Assembly: GCF_016123485.1 (NCBI RefSeq)
Contig: NZ_JADCKQ010000006.1
Coordinates: 1-64,000, forward strand
Reading direction: 5' to 3'
Length of the DNA: 64,000 bases
From: Halocynthiibacter styelae
Lineage (GTDB): Bacteria; Pseudomonadota; Alphaproteobacteria; Rhodobacterales; Rhodobacteraceae
A program made the translations under genes and the position numbers. The notes beneath the pieces are model-generated. The model was given only the letters and a program-made list of their open reading frames with translations. It had not been told where the DNA came from and searched no databases. Positions 3,695-58,933 of the stretch are shown in pieces. How positions within the stretch are numbered: position 1 is the stretch's first letter; every line of letters begins with the position of its first letter.

Positions 3695-5245
3695 ATGTCA
3701 GCAAGCACTTCACGGCGTCGCGGACGCGGCAAACGTATTGAAACTGCGGAAAACCCGGAAACTGAAAAGCCACCTGTCTGGCCCGGGGTGTCTGGCGGAC
3801 GTATGCAGCCGTTGACGCCGCATGAAATTGAACAGGTGAATGAAGCTGTTCTGTCACTGCTTGAAACCCTTGGTCTGTCACAGGCCACCCCATCCATGAT
3901 CGAAAAGGTCACGGCCGAGGGCGGCACATATACCGATGACAAACGCCTGCTGTTTCCCCGCGAGTTGGTTCTGAAGACCATCGCAGAAGCCCGCCGCGAC
4001 ATTGTTCTTTACGGGCAGGAAGAAGGCCGTGAGATTGATCTGTCCGGTGCCCGCGTTCACATGAGTTCCGGTGGCGGTGCCCCGGGGGTGTTTGATCTGG
4101 AAACCGGCGGTTATCGCGACGGCAATGTTCAGGATCTTTATGATGCGGCCCGGCTGTGTGACGCGATGGAAAACATCCACCATTTCAGTCGTTCTATTAT
4201 CGCGCGTGAAATAACGGACAATCTGGATCTGGATCTGAACACCGCCTATGCCTGCCTGTCCGGCACATCTAAGCATGTATCCATCAGCGTGACTGAACCT
4301 GAATTCGTCGAACATATCGCGCAGCTTTGTTATGATATCGCAGGCAGCGAAGAAGCCTTCCGCGCTCGCCCCTTCCTGACGGTGATGGTGTGCCATGTGG
4401 TTCCGCCGATGCGTTTCGCAGAAGAAGCGGTGGACACGCTGGAACTGGCGATCAAAGCAGGTTTCCCTGTGCAGCTTATCTCGGCCGGACAGGCCGGTGC
4501 CACAAGCCCCGCCACCATCGCGGGCTCTCTGACCCAGGCGGTTGCCGAAACTCTGGCGGGTCTGGTGTTCGCACGCCTGGTTGATCCGAATGTCGCCGCA
4601 ATCTTTGGCCCCAAACCTCTGGTCGCTGACCTGCGCACAGGGTCTATGTGCGGTGGCGGTGGCGAACAGGCGATCCTGATGGGGGCCGCCGCGCAGATGG
4701 GGCGTTATTACAACCTGCCCACCACATCCATTGCCGGGATCACCGATGCAAAAACCCATGACGCGCAATATGGGGCTGAGAAATGCCTGGCGGTATCCAT
4801 GGCGGCGCATGCGGGCAGCAACCTTGTCACCCAGGCCTGCGGCATGCAATCCAGCCTTCTGGGCGTGTCTCATGCGGCTTACGTTATTGATAATGACATG
4901 CTGGGAAATATCCTGCGCACCATTCGCGGCGTTGAAGTCACCGCAGAAAACATCGGGGCAGAGGTGATCGCAGAGGTGTGCAAAGGCGAAGGGCATTACC
5001 TTGGGCATATGCACACATTTTCACGGATGAAATCGGATTACTTCTATCCGCATCTCGGGGACCGGCGCACGCCTGCCGACTGGGAATCCGACGGATCCAA
5101 AGCAATAGGCGACACCGCCAAAGAGAAAACCAGAGAGTTGTTGAATTCCCATTTTCCCGGGCATATTTCTGACGAAACGGATCGTCGTATCCGGGAGAAA
5201 TTCAACATCCACCTGACACGACAGGGGATGGGACGCGGAGCCTGA
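3695..5245 (+). CDS. MttB-superfamily methyltransferase (non-pyrrolysine)
   Basis: Related to the trimethylamine methyltransferase MttB, but with no in-frame amber codon, so it belongs to the non-pyrrolysine branch. Characterised members of that branch move a methyl group from quaternary amines such as glycine betaine to a corrinoid protein. The protein has 516 residues, with a basic N-terminal tail and then a TIM barrel throughout. The start at 3695 has AAGGA seven bases upstream. No corrinoid protein or corrinoid-folate methyltransferase is encoded beside it, so its methyl acceptor is unknown. The aldehyde dehydrogenase follows after five bases and is clearly co-transcribed. A quaternary or N-methylated amine is the likely substrate; which one cannot be read from sequence. 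Confidence 0.85.
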   Translation: MSASTSRRRGRGKRIETAENPETEKPPVWPGVSGGRMQPLTPHEIEQVNEAVLSLLETLGLSQATPSMIEKVTAEGGTYTDDKRLLFPRELVLKTIAEARRDIVLYGQEEGREIDLSGARVHMSSGGGAPGVFDLETGGYRDGNVQDLYDAARLCDAMENIHHFSRSIIAREITDNLDLDLNTAYACLSGTSKHVSISVTEPEFVEHIAQLCYDIAGSEEAFRARPFLTVMVCHVVPPMRFAEEAVDTLELAIKAGFPVQLISAGQAGATSPATIAGSLTQAVAETLAGLVFARLVDPNVAAIFGPKPLVADLRTGSMCGGGGEQAILMGAAAQMGRYYNLPTTSIAGITDAKTHDAQYGAEKCLAVSMAAHAGSNLVTQACGMQSSLLGVSHAAYVIDNDMLGNILRTIRGVEVTAENIGAEVIAEVCKGEGHYLGHMHTFSRMKSDYFYPHLGDRRTPADWESDGSKAIGDTAKEKTRELLNSHFPGHISDETDRRIREKFNIHLTRQGMGRGA

Positions 5246-50083: not shown

Positions 50084-50380
50084 TTACTCAGAAGCAACCT
50101 GTTCAGCGAACCATGCGGCGGCCACTGGGTTCACACCGCCCTTAGAGGACAGGGTTGCGCCAACGGATGGGTTTGCTTGTGTTTCGATGCCTGTGCCAGC
50201 TTCTGCAGCCAGATCAGCAAAGATTTCAACAGCTTCTGCAGAAACCGGAGCAGAGCGTTCAACAACAACGCTTTCGATACCTACGTTGTCTTGAGCGAAG
50301 TGAGCTTCAACATCTTTGGCACCAGCAAAAGCAGGAGCAGCAACAGTCAGGGCGAGGATGGATGCGATTACAGTTTTCAT
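50084..50380 (-). CDS. Small secreted protein of unknown function
   Basis: 98 residues. A clear Sec signal peptide (about 1-19, cut at PAFA-G) leaves an acidic mature protein of some 79 residues with no cysteine and no membrane helix; the second half is rich in small residues (GIETQANPSVGATLSSKGG). I do not recognise the family. AAAGG lies nine bases before the ATG, and the gene has its own terminator, so it is a real monocistronic unit. The long upstream region contains an 11-bp-phased array, suggesting tight regulation by an unknown factor. Confidence 0.8.
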   Translation of the reverse strand: MKTVIASILALTVAAPAFAGAKDVEAHFAQDNVGIESVVVERSAPVSAEAVEIFADLAAEAGTGIETQANPSVGATLSSKGGVNPVAAAWFAEQVASE

Positions 50381-50639: not shown

Positions 50640-50666
50640 GAAAAAACCCCGGCGCGAACCGGGGCT
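50640..50666 (-). terminator. Terminator of the aldolase-hydroxylase operon
   Basis: On the minus strand, CCCCGG (50659-50664 read in reverse) pairs with CCGGGG across a six-base loop and is followed by six T (50641-50646). It lies about 30 bp past the hydroxylase stop codon. Confidence 0.88.
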
Positions 50667-50695
50667 TTCAGGAGGGAAATCAGATCTGTTGCAGA

Positions 50696-51691
50696 TCAGC
50701 TGTACATCCGTTTCTTGCGTGCGCGGGTTTCAGAGGTTGCTTCAGAAGATCCATCATGGAATGTCCCGAACCAGCGATCCCATGGCATTTCCTGGTTGCC
50801 ATAGTTGCATTCATAATACCGGTGGTGCAGCTGGTGGTAAAACGTGCCCAGCGCCAGCTTGCGTTTATCTTTGATCAACAGATCCTCATAGCCGGTGTGG
50901 GTCATGGCAGCACCCGGGCCCTGAAAGATGATGTGGAAGTAAAGATGGATCGGGTGGCTTGGCAGGATCCAGTGAATGCACAGCGTCGTCAGGTAGATGA
51001 AATGTTCAATCGGGTGCATGGAAAAGCCGCTCCAGGGGCCGATGTTCACATTGCGATGATGCAGGGCGTGCACACGTTTATACAGGAACGGCTGATGCAG
51101 CAGGCGATGCACCCAGTAGAAGTGGAAAGCGGACCACATTGGAATGATCACAAGGAAGGCGAGGAACCACACCGGGTTTTCCGCAAAAGTGATCATCGGC
51201 ACATAGCCATTTGCCATCAACCACATGCTGATCACCTGGAAGAAGGTCAGTTGAAACACGCCGGACCCAAGGGACCAGAACATATTATCATGTACCTGAT
51301 CCTTAAAATTCCAGAGCGCATTGTTCGTGCCCTGATCCCGGCGTTCAAACTTCAGCTTTTTGCCCTGGCCTTTGCGCATATAAAAATACCAGTGCAGGCC
51401 ACCCGCCACGACAAAGATCATGACAAAGTTCACAAGCCAGACTTGGAAGATCCAGCCAAAGGCAAATGTCTGCGCGGTTTCAATCGCCGGGTAAAAGAAG
51501 AACCAGAACGCAACAGCCGCGATCGCCATCATCACACGTTCTGACAGGGTCAGCCAGTTGCGCGCCAGCCAGCCCGCAAGATAAGCCGGGTTCGGGGGCC
51601 ACTTAAACACCGACGGATTATCAAGCGGCAGATCCGGATGATAATTCCACTCACGGGTCATATCTTCCAGTTGTTCGGTGTTGTCAGTCAT
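50696..51691 (-). CDS. Sterol desaturase/fatty acid hydroxylase family protein
   Basis: A di-iron membrane oxygenase of 331 residues with four or so helices. Histidine boxes are HRLLH, HALHH, HPIEH and HQLHH, spaced as in the FA_hydroxylase family. The substrate is unknown; family members act on sterols, fatty acids, alkylglycerols or carotenoids. It is the last gene of the minus-strand operon after the DddP-like gene (26 bp gap, AGAGGAG ribosome binding site) and has a strong terminator. Its link with soluble aldolases and an M24 enzyme is unusual. Confidence 0.88.
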   Translation of the reverse strand: MTDNTEQLEDMTREWNYHPDLPLDNPSVFKWPPNPAYLAGWLARNWLTLSERVMMAIAAVAFWFFFYPAIETAQTFAFGWIFQVWLVNFVMIFVVAGGLHWYFYMRKGQGKKLKFERRDQGTNNALWNFKDQVHDNMFWSLGSGVFQLTFFQVISMWLMANGYVPMITFAENPVWFLAFLVIIPMWSAFHFYWVHRLLHQPFLYKRVHALHHRNVNIGPWSGFSMHPIEHFIYLTTLCIHWILPSHPIHLYFHIIFQGPGAAMTHTGYEDLLIKDKRKLALGTFYHQLHHRYYECNYGNQEMPWDRWFGTFHDGSSEATSETRARKKRMYS

Positions 51692-51717
51692 TCTGGCATC
51701 TCCTCTTTGCCAAAGGC

Positions 51718-53016
51718 TCAGATTTCGCGCGACAAAAGCGCGTCTTCAAACGGGTAGCGCGACAGGCAAATCGCACCGGTTTCTGTAATGAGATACTGAT
51801 CCTCAAGCTTCACGCCTTCATGGCCGCCCAGCTTGCCGACATAGCTTTCCACACAAATGACCATGCCGGCTTCAAGTTCGTCGTCGTAGTGGAATGCTTC
51901 GTCTTCGGGGTAGTAGATCACCGGATATTCATCCGCCATGCCCAGACCATGCATCATGCAGGGATAGGTCTGATCATTGTAACCATCCGGCTGGCGATAC
52001 CGCCCGTCGATCAGTTCACGGAAGGACGCGCCGGGGCGCAGCAGCTGGGCGTTATGCGTGATTTCATTATGGGCGTATTGATAGAGACGGCATTGTTCAT
52101 CCGTCGGGCGGCCCGGACCGCAATGATAGGCACGGGAAATATCGGCCCCATAAGACCAGGGGCCAACCATGCCGCAATCAAACACCACCAGATCACCGGC
52201 ACGGATGGTGCGCGAAGAGGCTTCCTGCTGCCAGGGGTTCGTACGTTCACCCGAGGCCAGCAAACGGTAATCGATCCATTCGCCACCGCCTTCGATATTC
52301 GCAGCCCACATATGCGACCAAAGCGCCTGTTCCGTCATACCGTTGACCAGGTGATTGCGCATCCGGGTCATCCCGTCTTCGGCCACGGCGATGGTCTGGT
52401 TCATACAAAGGATTTCTTCGGGGGATTTGATCTTGCGGGCATGGGCCAGGGCTTCGCCGGCATCCACCAGTGTCAGCCCTTCGGTTTCCAGCGCCATATG
52501 CGGCAGGGGGGCGGTGCGTTCCACGCCCACACGGGTTTCACCGCCGCAGTGTTCATCCACCAGCGCCTTCATCTGTTTCGCCCATTTCGTGCACCATTCC
52601 TGGTGGCGGTAACCGGCGAACATATAGGACAGTGGCATCAGATCTTCGCGGATCTCATCAATGGTTTCCAGCTGCCCCCCGGTTTCGCGGCCAGGTTCGC
52701 TGTCAAAGTAGATCACCGGGCCTTCTGCGGGCATAAACAGATAGCCCGCGTGAATATGCATCTGAAACAGGGTGCAGTTGCGCACGCCTGTCGCGTAACG
52801 AATGGACAGCGGATCGGTCAGGATCACTGCGGCAAGGCCATGGGCCTTCATCTGTTCGCGCAGGCGGTTCTGGCGATAGCGGCGCATACGGGGCACATCA
52901 ATCATGCCTTCCGTATCGGTCAGCTGCATTGGCGGGGTCTTCCAGGCGGCTTCCGTCAGCGTCATAGGCTGTGGCTTGGCGGCAAAGGCCTTGCTGTAGT
53001 CGGTGGCGTCATTCAT
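51718..53016 (-). CDS. DddP-like M24-family metalloenzyme
   Basis: 432 residues of the M24 (creatinase/aminopeptidase P) fold, closest in pattern to the DMSP lyase DddP; GGEWIDYRLLASGERTNPW is nearly the DddP motif. The metal ligands D280, D292, H356, E390 and E405 are present, and D362 sits where DddP has its catalytic base. Compared with the DddP numbering I recall (295, 307, 371, 377, 406, 421), the spacing is the same to within one residue. The N-terminal third differs clearly from DddP, so the substrate need not be DMSP. The start at 53016 makes a four-base overlap with the upstream gene; an ATG six codons earlier is less likely. Confidence 0.82.
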   Translation of the reverse strand: MNDATDYSKAFAAKPQPMTLTEAAWKTPPMQLTDTEGMIDVPRMRRYRQNRLREQMKAHGLAAVILTDPLSIRYATGVRNCTLFQMHIHAGYLFMPAEGPVIYFDSEPGRETGGQLETIDEIREDLMPLSYMFAGYRHQEWCTKWAKQMKALVDEHCGGETRVGVERTAPLPHMALETEGLTLVDAGEALAHARKIKSPEEILCMNQTIAVAEDGMTRMRNHLVNGMTEQALWSHMWAANIEGGGEWIDYRLLASGERTNPWQQEASSRTIRAGDLVVFDCGMVGPWSYGADISRAYHCGPGRPTDEQCRLYQYAHNEITHNAQLLRPGASFRELIDGRYRQPDGYNDQTYPCMMHGLGMADEYPVIYYPEDEAFHYDDELEAGMVICVESYVGKLGGHEGVKLEDQYLITETGAICLSRYPFEDALLSREI

Positions 53017-53852
53017 TGGTGGGTCGGGCTCCATTTATCGAGGGCTTCCTGCAGTTTTTCCTGCTCACCCGCAGTCATCGGCACAGTGTGGGCGGCATCG
53101 GGAAATGCACCGGATGTTACATCATCGCGGAACCCGCCCAGCGCGCGGCCACGTTCGGCCTGCATCTGTTTGCGAATCGATAGAACATCGCCCCAGGCTT
53201 TGGCGTGGCGTGGCGGGTTTTCAACATCGCCGCAGATGTCTTCCATGAAGGAAAAGATAATATCCCCCCCGGACCCGGCACCGATGGAATGTGTGACGAT
53301 GGATGTGCGCGGGCCGATTTCCTGCAAAGCTTCAACCGCAACGCATTCGACCTCGGCCGCAACGGCCCCTGCATCTTCCAGACGTTTGAAATCCTGAAAA
53401 AGCTGCATGGCTTCTTCTGCCGTCTTGCCAAAGGTACGCAGCCCGCCGATCAGGGTGGATTTGCGCGGCACAAGCCCCACATGCCCCTGCACCGCCAGGC
53501 CTTCGCCAGACAGGCGTTCAATGGTTTTCAGGCCACGCGGCGTAAAAATCGCATCCGCGCCTTTTTCAGCACAGCGGATCGCAGCGGCAAGAGCTTCGTC
53601 CTCTGTCATATATTGCACCATGGTCTGGGACCCGGTGACAAAGGTTTCGGGCGCGGCAGCACGCACATCTTCGATGTCGTGATCTGCGATGGTGATCAGA
53701 TCAATGCCCATGGCTGCACAGGCCCCCGCCTCATCCCCGTTGATCGCCGACACCTGCGTCATCTTACGACCAGCGGCTTTATTCGCCTGAAGGCAGGCAA
53801 TAGTCAGGTTGCGGCGGGCCGGGCGGCCGCCGTATGTGTAGATGTTTTTCAT
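53013..53852 (-). CDS. PanB-like protein with altered active site
   Basis: 279 residues related to 3-methyl-2-oxobutanoate hydroxymethyltransferase (PanB): VQGHVGLVPRKSTLIGG (121-137), with the His of GHxGL, and VECV with E169 at the catalytic position are retained. However, the ADLPF segment with the second metal-binding Asp is replaced by VTGSQT, and the KIEGG segment with the substrate-binding Glu by FTPRG. A true ketopantoate-forming role is therefore doubtful; a related aldolase or lyase reaction is more likely. It sits 17 bp after the class II aldolase and is coupled to the DddP-like gene. Confidence 0.75.
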   Translation of the reverse strand: MKNIYTYGGRPARRNLTIACLQANKAAGRKMTQVSAINGDEAGACAAMGIDLITIADHDIEDVRAAAPETFVTGSQTMVQYMTEDEALAAAIRCAEKGADAIFTPRGLKTIERLSGEGLAVQGHVGLVPRKSTLIGGLRTFGKTAEEAMQLFQDFKRLEDAGAVAAEVECVAVEALQEIGPRTSIVTHSIGAGSGGDIIFSFMEDICGDVENPPRHAKAWGDVLSIRKQMQAERGRALGGFRDDVTSGAFPDAAHTVPMTAGEQEKLQEALDKWSPTHQ

Positions 53853-53869
53853 TGTCAGTCCCGCAGGGT

Positions 53870-54625
53870 TCAGGAGGCGTAGTCAGAGCTTTCGGCGTCA
53901 AGAACAGCCATGATTTCACGCATATGGGCTTCGGCCTGGCCAGGGTAATCGTCCAGTTCCTGCGCGGTTTTCTCTGCAATTTCATCCGACAGAACCCGCA
54001 GCTCTCGACCGGTTTGCAGGGCACGAATGTAGGTTTCAGCCGCGCGTTCAAAATAGTAGAGGCGATTGAATGTATCTGCCGGATTGTCCCCGATGATCAA
54101 AACGCCGTGGTTGCCCATGATCATGGTTTTGACCTTTGGATCGGTCAGCATGGATGCACAGCGCGCGCCTTCGTCACCAAAAGCCAGACCACCGAATTCC
54201 TCGTCAATCACATAGCGGTTGTAAAACGTCGCGGTGTTCTGATCGATCGGTGGCAGGTTGCTGTCGGCAAGGCTGGCCAGAACGGTGGCGTGGATCGAAT
54301 GCACGTGCATCACGCAACGCGCCTGCGGACAGAGACGGTGGATAGACCCATGCAGACCCCAGGCGGTGGGATCCGGTGCGCCGGGCTTGTCCATCGTGTC
54401 CGGATCGTTCGCGTCCAGGAACAACAGGTCAGACGCTTTGATGCGGGAAAAATGCATCTGGTTCGGGTTCATCAGGAATTGTGACCCATCGTCATTCACC
54501 GCCAGGCTGAAATGGTTTGCCACCGCTTCATGCATGTTCAGGCGTTCTGTCCAGCGGAAAGCGGCGGCCATTTCGACCCGCTCCTGCCAGTGATCCATGT
54601 TCTGTTTTAGCTGTGTGACGCTCAT
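53870..54625 (-). CDS. Class II aldolase/adducin family protein
   Basis: 251 residues of the zinc-dependent fuculose-phosphate-aldolase type. Zinc ligands are H107 and H109 (MHVHSIH) and H173 (GNHGVLI). Members cleave or decarboxylate sugar-acid or hydroxy-carbonyl compounds. The start at 54625 has AGGGGA just upstream; the frame opens 37 codons earlier into the promoter region. First gene of the four-gene operon (aldolase, PanB-like, DddP-like, hydroxylase), divergent from a LysR gene. Confidence 0.85.
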   Translation of the reverse strand: MSVTQLKQNMDHWQERVEMAAAFRWTERLNMHEAVANHFSLAVNDDGSQFLMNPNQMHFSRIKASDLLFLDANDPDTMDKPGAPDPTAWGLHGSIHRLCPQARCVMHVHSIHATVLASLADSNLPPIDQNTATFYNRYVIDEEFGGLAFGDEGARCASMLTDPKVKTMIMGNHGVLIIGDNPADTFNRLYYFERAAETYIRALQTGRELRVLSDEIAEKTAQELDDYPGQAEAHMREIMAVLDAESSDYAS

Positions 54626-54703
54626 CGCTGATCCCCTGAATGCTGATAATTCAGCCTGATCACCCCGCGACATCTTTACCAGCAAAAAAAAAGCAGCCAT
54701 GGT

Positions 54704-54718
54704 ATTAGTCCAACTAAT
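54704..54718. promoter_or_regulatory. LysR-type box between the aldolase operon and its LysR gene
   Basis: ATTAGT-CCA-ACTAAT is a perfect six-base palindrome that fits the T-N11-A LysR box. It lies 16 bp before the LysR start and about 80 bp before the aldolase start. A second palindrome, GCTGA-TAAT-TCAGC, is at 54643-54656. Confidence 0.6.
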
Positions 54719-54734
54719 GCATGAGTTATGTGTC

Positions 54735-55619
54735 ATGGAACATCAGAAACTGCCCCCGCTGAACTGGTTGCGCGCGTTTGAAGCGTCCTCCCGGCATCTG
54801 TCTTTCACCAATGCCGCACAGGAGCTGAACATGACGCAATCAGCGGTCAGCCAGCAGATCAAATCGCTGGAAGGCTTCCTGAGCAAACCGCTGTTTTACC
54901 GCCATGTGCGCCGGCTGGAACTGACAGAGGCGGGAAAGCTGTATCTGCCCTGGGTGCAGGACAGTTTTCGGGTGCTGAAACAAGGCACAGGGGCGGTGAT
55001 CGGCCCGGCGCGTAAGAAAACCCTGCAAATCGTGTCTAACCTTGCCTTTACGGTGCATTTCCTGACCCCGCGCCTGCCGGATTTTCACCGCAGAAATCCG
55101 GATATCCGGCTGAATTTCACGACGCCAATCTGGCACCATGATCATACGTCCTCTGCCGCAGATCTTGAGATTCGTTTTGACCGGTATCCGGCGGACACCA
55201 CGCAATGCGAAACCCTGTTCAATCCGCAGTATTTTCCTGTCGCCAAACCCGGCACCGATGTCCGCCTGGACACCCTGTTTGATCACCCGCTGTATGATTG
55301 CGCCGGGCTGACCTGTGGCTGGGAAAGCTGGCTGAATGCGCGCCAGATGGCCCTGCCCAAAACCGCACATCTGACATGGGCCAGCACCTATGTTGTCAGT
55401 TTCGCCGCCGCGATGGCGGGCAGCGGGCTTGCGATTGGTCATGATATTCTGGTGGCAGATCTTGTGCGCGAGGGCCGCATGACGTTGCCGTTTGAGGAAA
55501 GGGAACCCATGACAGAGGCCTATTATCTGATCCATCCGTCCGGTCAGGTGGCAAACCCGGCAGCGGGGATTTTCGCGGACTGGCTGAAAGAACAAATCGA
55601 GGGGTTGCAGCTTTTGTGA
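54735..55619 (+). CDS. LysR-family regulator
   Basis: 294 residues from the ATG at 54735, with the helix-turn-helix at about residues 10-60 (FEASSRHLSFTNAAQELNMTQSAVSQQIKSLE) and a GcvA-like effector domain. The frame opens 12 codons earlier, across the LysR box, so the later ATG is preferred. It diverges from the aldolase-PanB-DddP-hydroxylase operon and is the likely regulator of it. The adenine deaminase gene begins 19 bp downstream on the same strand. Confidence 0.9.
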   Translation: MEHQKLPPLNWLRAFEASSRHLSFTNAAQELNMTQSAVSQQIKSLEGFLSKPLFYRHVRRLELTEAGKLYLPWVQDSFRVLKQGTGAVIGPARKKTLQIVSNLAFTVHFLTPRLPDFHRRNPDIRLNFTTPIWHHDHTSSAADLEIRFDRYPADTTQCETLFNPQYFPVAKPGTDVRLDTLFDHPLYDCAGLTCGWESWLNARQMALPKTAHLTWASTYVVSFAAAMAGSGLAIGHDILVADLVREGRMTLPFEEREPMTEAYYLIHPSGQVANPAAGIFADWLKEQIEGLQLL

Positions 55620-55638: not shown

Positions 55639-57447
55639 ATGGTAACGCAATCATTCCCTTCATGGCCCGATGTCGCCCCCCGTCTTGTTGCTGTTGCGGC
55701 AGGACGCGAACCCGCTGATACCGTTGTAAAAGGCGGCAAATGGGTGAATGTGCACACCCGCGAGGTGCTGGGAAATCACGATATTGCCATTGCTGAGGGG
55801 CGCTTTGCTTATTGCGGGCCGGATGCCAGTCATTGCATCGGGCCGGACACCGAGGTGATCGAGGCCGATGGCGCCTATATGATCCCCGGGCTGTGTGATG
55901 CGCATATGCACATCGAAAGCGGGATGCTGACGCCTGCGGAATTTGCCCGCGCCGTTGCCCCCCATGGTACGACCACCATGTTCACCGATCCGCATGAGAT
56001 CGCCAACGTTCTTGGGCTTGAGGGCGTGCGACTGATGCATGACGAAGCCATGCTGCAGCCGGTGAATATTTACACGCAGATGCCCTCCTGTGCGCCTTCA
56101 GCCCCCGGGCTTGAAACCACCGGTTACGAAATCACGCCTGACGATGTGGCAGAGGCCATGCACTGGCCCGGGATTATTGGCCTGGGCGAGATGATGAATT
56201 TCCCCGGCGTGATCAATGGCGACCCCAAAATGCTGGCAGAGATTGCCGCAACACAACGCGCTGGCAAAACCGTCGGCGGCCATTACGCCAGCCCCGATCT
56301 GGGCCTGCCCTTCCATGCCTATGCTGCCGGCGGTCCTGCGGATGATCACGAAGGCACCTGTGAAGCCGATGCGATTGCCCGCGCCCGTCAGGGGATGCGC
56401 CATATGATGCGGCTGGGATCGGCCTGGTATGACGTGGAAACACAGATTACTGCCGTGACCGAAAAGGGCCTGGACCCGCGTAGTTTTATCCTTTGTACCG
56501 ATGATTGCCACTCAGGCACGCTGGTCAATGACGGCCATATGAACCGCGTTGTGCGCCATGCGATTGAATGCGGCTGTGATCCGCTGATTGCTTTGCAGAT
56601 GGCCACGATCAACACGGCAACGCATTTTGGTCTGGAACGTGAATTGGGGTCTATCGCGCCGGGGCGTCGGGCGGATATGATCCTGACAACTGATCTGAAA
56701 ACCCTGCCGATTGACACCGTCATTTCACGCGGTAAAGTGATCGCAAAACAGGGACTAATGCGGGCAGAATGCCCACATCTGGCCTGGCCGGACCATGCGC
56801 GGAACACCGTGAATATGGCGCGGGATCTGTCAGCAGGCGACTTTGTGATCACAGCACCTGAGGGTGCAAATCACGTCACGGCCAATATCATTGGGGTCGT
56901 CGAAAATCAGGCCCCCACCAAAGCGTTGCAGATGGAACTGCCTGTGGTGAATGGTGAAGTCAAAGGCGACCCGGCCCAGGATGTTTGCCAGATTTCCCTT
57001 GTGGAACGTCATCGCGCAACCGGGGGCGTAACCAACGCGCTGGTGTCTGGCTTTGGCTATACCGGCAATATGGCGATGGCATCGACCGTGGCGCATGACA
57101 GCCATCATATGATTGTCATCGGCACAAGCCAGGATGATATGGCCCTGGCGGCGAACCGTCTGCGCGAAGTCGGTGGTGGTGTTGTGATCTTTAAGGATGG
57201 TCAGGAATTGTCGCTGGTGGAACTGCCGATTGCTGGCCTGATGTCTGACAGCCCCGCCCACGAAGTTGCCGCGAAAGCTGACGCCCTGGGCGACGCCATG
57301 CGCGCCTGTGGCTGCACGTTGAATAACGCCTATATGCAACATTCACTGTTGGCGCTTGTCGTTATCCCCGAGATGCGGATTTCTGATCTGGGCCTTGTGG
57401 ATGTGCGCACATTTGAACTGATACCGCTGTTTGAAGAAGGAAAATAA
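55639..57447 (+). CDS. ade: Adenine deaminase
   Basis: Converts adenine to hypoxanthine and ammonia. 602 residues of the amidohydrolase fold: metal-binding CDAHMHIESGML, EIANVLG, ILCTDDCHSG, and the C-terminal adenine-deaminase domain with VSGFGYTGNMAMASTVAHDSHHMIVIG. It is just upstream of the AMP nucleosidase gene (four bases between), so the pair turns AMP into hypoxanthine and ribose-5-phosphate. Confidence 0.95.
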   Translation: MVTQSFPSWPDVAPRLVAVAAGREPADTVVKGGKWVNVHTREVLGNHDIAIAEGRFAYCGPDASHCIGPDTEVIEADGAYMIPGLCDAHMHIESGMLTPAEFARAVAPHGTTTMFTDPHEIANVLGLEGVRLMHDEAMLQPVNIYTQMPSCAPSAPGLETTGYEITPDDVAEAMHWPGIIGLGEMMNFPGVINGDPKMLAEIAATQRAGKTVGGHYASPDLGLPFHAYAAGGPADDHEGTCEADAIARARQGMRHMMRLGSAWYDVETQITAVTEKGLDPRSFILCTDDCHSGTLVNDGHMNRVVRHAIECGCDPLIALQMATINTATHFGLERELGSIAPGRRADMILTTDLKTLPIDTVISRGKVIAKQGLMRAECPHLAWPDHARNTVNMARDLSAGDFVITAPEGANHVTANIIGVVENQAPTKALQMELPVVNGEVKGDPAQDVCQISLVERHRATGGVTNALVSGFGYTGNMAMASTVAHDSHHMIVIGTSQDDMALAANRLREVGGGVVIFKDGQELSLVELPIAGLMSDSPAHEVAAKADALGDAMRACGCTLNNAYMQHSLLALVVIPEMRISDLGLVDVRTFELIPLFEEGK

Positions 57448-57451
57448 AAAT

Positions 57452-58933
57452 ATGACAGCCGATCCCGAACTTTCGGTGCAATCGCCACCGACACCCGCCC
57501 CAAAGGTCTTTACCGACGCCAAAGCCGCGGTCGCGCATCTGTGCGATCTTTATACCACGGCCACCAATTTCCTCTGCGAACGCTTTTCATCCTGCGTTGC
57601 CGGTCCGCGCCCGCAGGAACGCTTTCGCGCCTTTTACCCTGAGATCCGGATCAAGACGACAAGTTACGCCCAGGCTGATACCCGTCTTGCCTTTGGACAT
57701 GTCTCTAATCCGGGGGAATATGCCACAACTGTCACCCGTCCCGATCTGTTCCGCGCCTATCTGGAACATCAGATTGATCTGTTGATGTGCAGCCATGATG
57801 TGCCGGTGACAATCGCCGTGTCCGACACGCCGATCCCTGTGCATTTCGCGGTGGTGAACGATGCGAATGTTTCTGTTCCCCAGGGCGGGGCGATGGAATA
57901 TCCGCTGCGCGATATTTTTGACGTGCCGGATCTGTCCACCACCAATGATGACATCGTGAACGGGACCTTTGAGCCGCCTCACGGCGCACCTCTGCCGCTG
58001 GCGCCCTTCACGGCGCAGCGTGTGGATTATTCACTGGCGCGGCTGTCGCACTATACGGCAACCGATCCGGAACACTTCCAGAACCACGTATTGTTCACCA
58101 ACTACCAGTTCTATGTATCGGAATTTGAAGCCTACGCCCGCGAAATGCTGGCAGATCCGGACAGTGGTTACACCAGCTTTGTTTCCACCGGGAATATCGA
58201 GATCACCAAAGCGGATGAAGACTGCCCGCATCCCGCCAAGCTGCCACAGATGCCGACTTACCATCTGAAACGCGCGGATGGCGGTGGCATTACGCTTGTG
58301 AACATCGGGGTTGGTCCGTCAAATGCGAAGACCGCCACCGACCACATCGCTGTGCTGCGCCCGCATGCCTGGCTGATGGTTGGGCATTGCGCCGGTCTGC
58401 GGAACACCCAGGCCTTGGGTGACTTTGTGCTGGCGCATTCTTATCTGCGCGAAGATCACGTTCTGGATGATGACCTGCCCGTCTGGGTGCCAATCCCGCC
58501 GCTGGCCGAAGTTCAGGTGGCCCTGGAACAGGCGGTTGCCGATGTGACCCAGTTGGAAGGCTATGAGCTGAAACGTCTGATGCGGACGGGCACGGTTGCC
58601 ACCATTGATAACCGGAACTGGGAACTACGCGATCAGTCCGGCCCGGTGCAGCGCCTGTCACAATCCAGGGCTGTGGCGCTGGACATGGAAAGCGCAACCA
58701 TCGCGGCCAATGGGTTTCGCTTTCGGGTACCATATGGAACGCTGCTGTGCGTCAGTGATAAGCCCTTGCACGGAGAGCTAAAATTACCCGGCATGGCATC
58801 TGATTTCTACACAACACAGGTGCAAAGACATCTGAAAATCGGAATTCGGGCGATGGAAATGATCCGCGAAATGCCACTTGAACGGATCCATTCGCGTAAG
58901 TTGCGCAGCTTTGAGGAGACTGCATTCCTGTAA
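57452..58933 (+). CDS. amn: AMP nucleosidase
   Basis: Cleaves AMP to adenine and ribose 5-phosphate. 493 residues: N-terminal AMN_N domain (about 20-170, with the RFRAFYPEIRIKTTSYAQADTRLAFGHV block) and a C-terminal nucleoside-phosphorylase-type domain (VNIGVGPSNAKTATDHIAVLRPHAWLMVGHCAGLR, VALDMESATIAANGFRF). The start at 57452 has AAGGA upstream; the frame opens seven codons earlier inside ade. It supplies the substrate for Ade. Confidence 0.95.
   Translation: MTADPELSVQSPPTPAPKVFTDAKAAVAHLCDLYTTATNFLCERFSSCVAGPRPQERFRAFYPEIRIKTTSYAQADTRLAFGHVSNPGEYATTVTRPDLFRAYLEHQIDLLMCSHDVPVTIAVSDTPIPVHFAVVNDANVSVPQGGAMEYPLRDIFDVPDLSTTNDDIVNGTFEPPHGAPLPLAPFTAQRVDYSLARLSHYTATDPEHFQNHVLFTNYQFYVSEFEAYAREMLADPDSGYTSFVSTGNIEITKADEDCPHPAKLPQMPTYHLKRADGGGITLVNIGVGPSNAKTATDHIAVLRPHAWLMVGHCAGLRNTQALGDFVLAHSYLREDHVLDDDLPVWVPIPPLAEVQVALEQAVADVTQLEGYELKRLMRTGTVATIDNRNWELRDQSGPVQRLSQSRAVALDMESATIAANGFRFRVPYGTLLCVSDKPLHGELKLPGMASDFYTTQVQRHLKIGIRAMEMIREMPLERIHSRKLRSFEETAFL

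Follow-up and report, generated by a model that had tools for sequence, protein, structure and literature searches.

Ketopantoate hydroxymethyltransferase (PanB) uses methylene-tetrahydrofolate and exchanges the one-carbon (C1) unit with tetrahydrofolate (THF) (available part of PMC4814558), while formaldehyde-activating enzyme (Fae) is tetrahydromethanopterin-linked, the spontaneous reaction of formaldehyde with THF being described as too slow in vivo for growth on C1 compounds (available part of PMC7073904). In DddP, a dimethylsulfoniopropionate (DMSP) lyase, the metal ligands are reported to be invariant, and metal-ligand mutants of RnDddP were inactive (available part of PMC4108388, from which residue roles are also taken here), and NovR and CloR, oxygenases with an aldolase II fold, bind iron through three histidines (available part of PMC13111500). 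The rhizopine genes mocDEF, in turn, encode an FA_desaturase-type oxygenase (MocD), a ferredoxin (MocE) and a reductase (MocF). Here, we compare these systems with a four-gene operon and its divergent lysR gene from Halocynthiibacter styelae, located in the first 64,000 nucleotides of contig NZ_JADCKQ010000006.1 (hereafter the window). The four-gene set probably strips methyl groups off a nutrient, and a remodelled vitamin-B5 enzyme appears to catch the toxic formaldehyde that is released. The features concerned are as follows.

ALD, 53870..54625, minus strand: class II aldolase/adducin-fold protein (NCBIfam PRK07490)
PanB-like gene (PANB), 53013..53852, minus strand: PanB-fold protein (Pfam Pantoate_transf)
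M24, 51718..53016 (ATG; open reading frame (ORF) start also possible at 53034), minus strand: Creatinase_N and Peptidase_M24 (Pfam), a DddP sister
FAH, 50696..51691, minus strand: FA_hydroxylase (sterol-desaturase family), predicted membrane di-iron oxygenase
lysR, 54735..55619 (ATG at 54735; ORF start also possible at 54699), plus strand: LysR-type regulator (Pfam HTH_1 and LysR_substrate)
ATTAG-N5-CTAAT box, 54704..54718, no strand: between lysR and ALD, from an alignment of nine loci
Intrinsic terminator (hairpin plus U run), 50642..50669, minus strand: from fold energy

The PanB-like protein belongs to the Pantoate_transf family (PF02548; 109.1 bits, gathering score 28.7), although its score against the PanB equivalog model (TIGR00222; 86.3 bits) is far under the cut-off of 207.55. 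A residue survey of its relatives (147 homologous ORFs reduced to 41 diverse sequences with >220 residues aligned and near-copies removed) showed that D84, K112 and E114 of PanB, which we take to be the metal (Mg)/keto-acid residues, were lost in 41, 40 and 41 of the 41 relatives, respectively, the window protein carrying S75, F103 and P105 instead. H136 and E181 were kept throughout (41/41; window H124 and E169), and the family has acquired invariants of its own, namely E167 (at Ec V179; 41/41) and H216 (40/41). The likeness to PanB thus consists of the fold, H136 and E181, and the differences of the three lost residues, a 21-residue stretch absent from the window protein and the new E167 and H216. 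An AlphaFold2 model also has the PanB fold (pLDDT 74.6; best Foldseek match 1m3u). The window genome holds a separate, intact PanB (359.5 bits) beside a PanC-like ORF (identified by eye), and hence a role for the operon protein as a second pantothenate enzyme was dropped. Possession of a true PanB would have freed the operon copy, and, as an intact DddP is also encoded elsewhere in the genome, the operon copies of both are diverged paralogues. In 16 plasmid stretches (L294-L306 and L310-L312), the PanB-like proteins were all annotated as 3-methyl-2-oxobutanoate hydroxymethyltransferase, 13 of the 16 with a pantothenate Gene Ontology term, which is probably a widespread misannotation.

Oxygenases are frequent neighbors of this family. 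Within 1.5 kb of PANB, 30 of 48 deduplicated loci (flank ≥1.8 kb) encode MocE or an oxygenase (PhyH dioxygenase included), compared to 0 of 195 control genes taken from 20 round-coordinate regions of genomes carrying the family, although the neighbor profiles were seeded from PanB-like neighbors and therefore favor those subfamilies. These 30 loci comprised FAH (9), desaturase with MocE (10), desaturase (3), MocE alone (4), Rieske oxygenase (3) and PhyH (1). Earlier cuts of the data gave 22/35 loci versus 4/54 distant genes of the same loci within 1.5 kb, and 23/35 versus 1/17 within 3.5 kb. On a quick tree of the family (53 members, 36 of them labelled by nearest oxygenase only; 12 of 50 inner branches weak), the class of the partner (FAH, MocD-type FA_desaturase or Rieske) changed at least 10 times, where the possible minimum is 2, so that a shared product is a simpler explanation than a shared substrate. 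Sixteen further loci, some of them close kin (14 from family f174, one from f28 and one from the window's family), carried FA_desaturase (14, with MocE seen in 13) or FAH (2). Likewise, all 16 plasmid stretches, hand-picked from 273 listed records plus two further lists, had genes of the FA_desaturase or sterol-desaturase families and/or one for a MocE/Rieske ferredoxin adjoining PANB (only ferredoxin and reductase were annotated in L295 and L310). In the most distant family members on the tree (L291 and L292), VanA-type Rieske genes overlap the PANB relative by 4 bases; VanA represents a vanillate O-demethylase family. PanB-like genes have neighbors encoding transporters and enzymes for compounds resembling inositol, sugars or betaines, and these small polar compounds do not bear out the lipid-derived substrate envisaged in an initial reading of the window made from its letters alone (the sequence-only reading).

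Other neighbors were also recorded. Many SAR11 genomes (Pelagibacteraceae; L029, L031-L095) have PanB-like homologues at about 45% identity, some in two copies, next to PhyH, BVMO-like and GMC-like genes, or next to PanE-like, DUF1907, HpcH-like and IolD-like genes (several named by eye). On a Phaeobacter plasmid (L301), a gene of the inositol-oxygenase family (4343-4966) lies ahead of FAH-PANB, and inositol-oxygenase-like genes were seen by eye next to FAH in L163 and L168, the one in L163 having no Pfam match.

Genes of C1-folate metabolism adjoin PANB in some relatives. For example, PANB-folD-purU are contiguous on a Neotabrizicola plasmid (identical to the L285/L015 locus), and an Agrobacterium plasmid has desaturase-MocE-reductase followed by PANB-purU-folD. 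PurU also overlaps or follows PANB in L275, Sinorhizobium meliloti, Phyllobacterium and Rhizobium leguminosarum, and GCV_T/DmdA-like genes adjoin PANB in L138 and L292. The Neotabrizicola and L310-L312 contexts were chosen from queries already containing purU; among 12 plasmid contexts chosen without foreknowledge of purU, only the Agrobacterium one had it. A one-piece alignment across PANB and purU was found in 22 of 40 listed records (of 577), a count that includes the query's own record and many close strains.

Three of these loci can be tied to a known pathway. L310-L312 share the order MocR-like gene, [MocD], MocE-type ferredoxin, reductase, PANB and purU, where the desaturase of L310 is not annotated but a gap of matching size is present (the plasmid table is incomplete). 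These are most likely rhizopine loci, judging from the presence of the published moc-box, 11-bp direct repeats with 13-bp spacing (available part of PMC10107442). The box precedes the desaturase position with 0, 1 and 2 mismatches in L310, L311 and L312, respectively, and a sugar-binding gene with 3, 3 and 4 mismatches; it was not found at the same threshold in four other loci. Rhizopine catabolism has reportedly been modelled with a ferredoxin oxygenase complex (Bahar, 1998, going by the title). A PanB-like homologue is thus encoded directly downstream of mocDEF-type genes in L310-L312, and the available main text of PMC10107442 makes no mention of formaldehyde, purU or hydroxymethyltransferase. 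Compared to mocDEF, the window has FAH in place of MocD and LysR in place of MocR, ALD and M24 are extra, and the genome has no MocE.

Formaldehyde is the simplest product that the three unrelated oxygenase classes could have in common. Considering that all three share the PanB-like partner, that PanB exchanges C1 units with THF and that the unaided reaction is slow, we propose that the PanB-like protein is a THF-linked formaldehyde-capturing enzyme. FAH would hydroxylate an O-, N- or S-bound methyl group in a small polar substrate, the hydroxylated product would fall apart to release formaldehyde, and the PanB-like protein would capture this on THF as 5,10-methylene-THF. From there, FolD and PurU could either convert the C1 unit oxidatively into formate or direct it to biosynthesis. 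M24 would act on the remaining carboxylate skeleton (an onium or amine carboxylate), as might ALD, a putative three-histidine metalloprotein, with LysR predicted to control the operon via ATTAG-N5-CTAAT. We give a rough probability of 0.47, slightly below even, to the operon being such a cassette for oxygenative demethylation, with formaldehyde loaded onto THF by the PanB-like protein and the skeleton handled by M24 and ALD. For the window, the argument draws on relatives at about 31-84% identity, the purU/folD evidence coming from distant ones. It also agrees with the sequence-only reading's guess of a formaldehyde-like product, formaldehyde being suggested here by gene context.

A wider proposal, which we put forward more tentatively, is that the PanB-like family, currently annotated as a vitamin-B5 enzyme in plasmid records from rhizobia and roseobacters, is a THF counterpart of Fae and a general partner of oxygenative demethylases belonging to three or more unrelated families, MocDEF among them, and that the window operon is a marine version acting on a methylated carboxylate. 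The logic shared with Fae would be that of an enzyme loading formaldehyde onto a C1 carrier, with THF as the carrier instead of tetrahydromethanopterin. The two proteins presumably belong to unrelated families.

Several observations weigh against formaldehyde capture in a demethylation cassette. The AlphaFold2 model is of low quality near the loops of the active site and too uncertain there for geometry. No oxygenase was found within 1.5 kb of PANB in 18 of the 48 loci; seven of these have an oxygenase or MocE within 2.6 kb, and the remaining 11 include sugar-kinase loci, two SAR11 loci, L285 (with purU/folD) and others. C1-folate genes lay within 2.5 kb in 3/48 PanB-like loci versus 2/195 for the control (P = 0.054), a count that is at most suggestive, and neither purU nor folD was seen beside the PanB-like gene in the window's own clade. 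A search for MocE (TIGR02377) gave no match in the window genome, leaving the electron donor of FAH unnamed (MocF was not searched), and the nearest relative there of the Rieske oxygenase found in some clusters is at 32-38%. The FA_hydroxylase family also includes lipid enzymes. ALD relatives were flanked by FAH, desaturase or M24 in only 6/20 regions, so that ALD is not tied to the four-gene set, and desaturase-M24 clusters with ALD and/or MocE exist that lack PANB (L156, L157 and L159). In the four genomes carrying L156-L159, two had no PanB-like match (E 1e-15) and two had weak partial matches (34-35%), which may be true PanB.

The same gene context would fit a PanB-like protein that cleaves the oxygenase product itself (R-O-CH2OH, a hydroxymethyl ether, or R-N-CH2OH, a hemiaminal), with folate being optional, and the loss of D84, K112 and E114 is consistent with a different acceptor. 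Nonetheless, such products should collapse unaided, and the adjacency of purU/folD indicates folate; we therefore consider direct cleavage unlikely. We are similarly doubtful that the protein is an aldol or retro-aldol enzyme that acts on a carbonyl compound through a rebuilt metal site (H124, E167, E169 and H216) and makes an intermediate of the skeleton. The PanB fold, the new invariants E167 (in every relative surveyed) and H216 (in all except one), and the dehydrogenase neighbors of some loci, such as those resembling 3-hydroxyisobutyrate dehydrogenase (HIBADH) or aldehyde dehydrogenase (ALDH), speak for this chemistry, but the contexts range from sugar and inositol to betaine-like compounds, for which a single shared acceptor is hard to name.

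M24 raises a further alternative. Its best NCBIfam match is DddP (NF043017), at 305 bits versus a cut-off of 600, and it is 33-35% identical to DddP. Five metal ligands of the structurally solved DddP (D295, D307, H371, E406 and E421; window D280, D292, H356, E390 and E405) and the catalytic candidates Y366 and D377 (window Y351 and D362) are kept, whereas the ligand D297 is replaced by Gly (window G282) and W95 by Phe in 14/14 close relatives, a comparison in which both C-terminal ligands were unreadable in L020 and one in L159. The DddP active-site residues noted by the sequence-only reading are thus present as regards Y366 and D377, but the metal site is incomplete and the match is well under the family score. 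Apart from the reference, D297 is kept in seven further sequences (L160-L162, the genome's own DddP and three other copies). Among these seven, an Alisedimentitalea copy (55%) is likewise found next to a desaturase/ferredoxin pair, and an S. meliloti copy carries Gly at D377. One M24 relative is encoded next to MttB and near a betaine ABC protein; together with the relatives beside desaturase and ferredoxin, this suggests that M24 would act on an onium or amine carboxylate. A function as a second DddP was dropped because D297 is lost and a true DddP (887.6 bits) is present in the genome. The retained Y366 and D377 equivalents and the DddP match would also suit a DMSP-like lyase, in which beta-elimination by M24 turns a sulfonium or ammonium carboxylate into an acrylate-type product, to be processed further by FAH and the others. 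However, D297 is reported to be invariant in DddP, with ligand mutants of RnDddP inactive (available part of PMC4108388), and the genome has a true DddP of its own, making this quite improbable.

ALD matches PRK07490 (NF005689) at 406.5 bits, above the cut-off of 260. The histidines corresponding to FucA His92, His94 and His155, presumably the metal triad, are kept in 13/13 aligned sequences, and the place of Glu73, which we assume to be catalytic, is taken by Ala in 12/13, including the window, and by Gly in L028. With Glu73 missing here, and D84, K112 and E114 missing from the PanB-like protein, the description of these two as C-C lyase-type enzymes in the sequence-only reading is not supported. 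NovR (9ryg), the best sequence match of ALD in the PDB (65 bits), also has Ala at this place, so that ALD shares the triad and the Ala with NovR/CloR; the likeness amounts to only 65 bits, and oxygenase activity of ALD is conjectural. FAH, as had been anticipated, matches a di-iron membrane oxygenase family (FA_hydroxylase, PF04116; 80 bits, cut-off 31) and has the expected histidine motifs (HRLLH, HALHH, HPIEH and HQLHH). Its family name could suggest membrane-lipid or sterol modification, although this is highly improbable, as no lipid genes were seen within the cluster, a MocD-type desaturase or Rieske oxygenase takes the place of FAH elsewhere, and in other loci FAH lies beside sugar or betaine transporter genes. 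Homarine degradation was dropped as a candidate, with nothing matching among the literature matches listed.

A scan of genome contigs for PanB-like relatives, of which the best 80 of 178 were taken, showed that the order lysR<>ALD-PANB-M24-FAH recurs in related genera (L016, L018, L022, L025 and L129). A Rieske oxygenase gene is inserted after ALD in L018, L025 and L129, and L130 and L131 have the cluster without M24. A MocD-type desaturase adjoins PANB in L017, L023 and L137-L139, with MocE in all except L139; L017 holds an FAH gene further on as well, and Rieske, FAH and desaturase are all present in L024. M24 orthologues (64-68%) occur in other alphaproteobacterial families (f65 and f142) without PANB alongside, partnered by ALD, desaturase and MocE (L156), desaturase and MocE (L157), ALD (L158) or ALD and desaturase (L159, at a contig end). 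The four genes are an accessory set, with matches to the PanB-like gene in 26/295 genomes of the family (E 1e-50), to M24 in 8/289 genomes of the class (E 1e-120) and to ALD in 35/385 genomes of the class (E 1e-70). A scan of 398 genomes of the phylum for M24 at E 1e-130, too strict a threshold, returned the window genome only, and the genus around G036 (2 genomes) added nothing. These results agree with the sequence-only reading in that the operon is a conserved unit matching no known pathway: the genes are not scattered in close relatives, nor is each placed in a known pathway, although single genes also occur alone or recombined. Among the matches listed, literature searches returned no paper dealing with the four genes as a set or with a PanB-like partner of demethylases.

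The window genome contains a second PanB-like/FAH cluster (L128, C23, 5737-10192), which also has a HIBADH-like gene and an ALDH-like gene (the latter identified by eye). In L129 (7808-9502), the PanB-like gene is duplicated in tandem, the copies being 75% and 63% identical to that of the window.

Coordinates and hairpin folding confirmed the operon layout as first observed. The genes run ALD-PANB-M24-FAH with gaps of 17 bp, a 4-base overlap (53013-53016) and 26 bp, lysR is divergent, and the terminator hairpin at 50642-50669 has a folding energy of -18.8 kcal/mol (z = -2.66), although it was not among the matches of a pattern scan. A LysR box had also been claimed. The ATTAG-N5-CTAAT box is kept in the nine aligned loci, with one mismatch in two (L022 and L131), whereas the palindrome ctgaat-N7-attcag (54636-54654) is common only to the window and L016 among them. 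In 24 loci, the core TTAG-N5-CTAA near the lysR start was exact in 7, had one mismatch in 10 and was not found in 7 (L027, L128, L132, L163, L167, L168 and L171). The nearest subfamily model for LysR is GcvA (PRK11139), at 217.8 bits, below its cut-off of 288. The same core also precedes a second lysR 3' of the cluster in L018, L025 and L129, next to genes that look by eye like sugar-type ABC transporter genes.

Downstream of lysR, in head-to-tail arrangement, are genes for adenine deaminase and AMP nucleosidase (55639-58933), which adjoin the ALD cluster in many Rhodobacteraceae loci (L016-L018, L021, L022, L025, L129, L130, L236 and L238). A functional link to the cluster is possible, but their membership in the pathway was dropped, as no such label occurs in the FADES-type clusters L137-L139. 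At 50084-50380, a small protein is encoded whose start resembles a signal peptide and which matches no family in Pfam or NCBIfam.

Overall, the observations made from the window's letters were confirmed and their interpretation was partly supported. If the PanB-like family does capture formaldehyde, an enzyme for the reaction of formaldehyde with THF would exist, many annotations as pantothenate biosynthesis would be wrong, and a C1 step would be added to rhizopine catabolism. One-carbon engineering would also gain a candidate enzyme for existing Escherichia coli folate auxotrophs, and marine and soil bacteria would have in common a portable means of stripping methyl groups safely.

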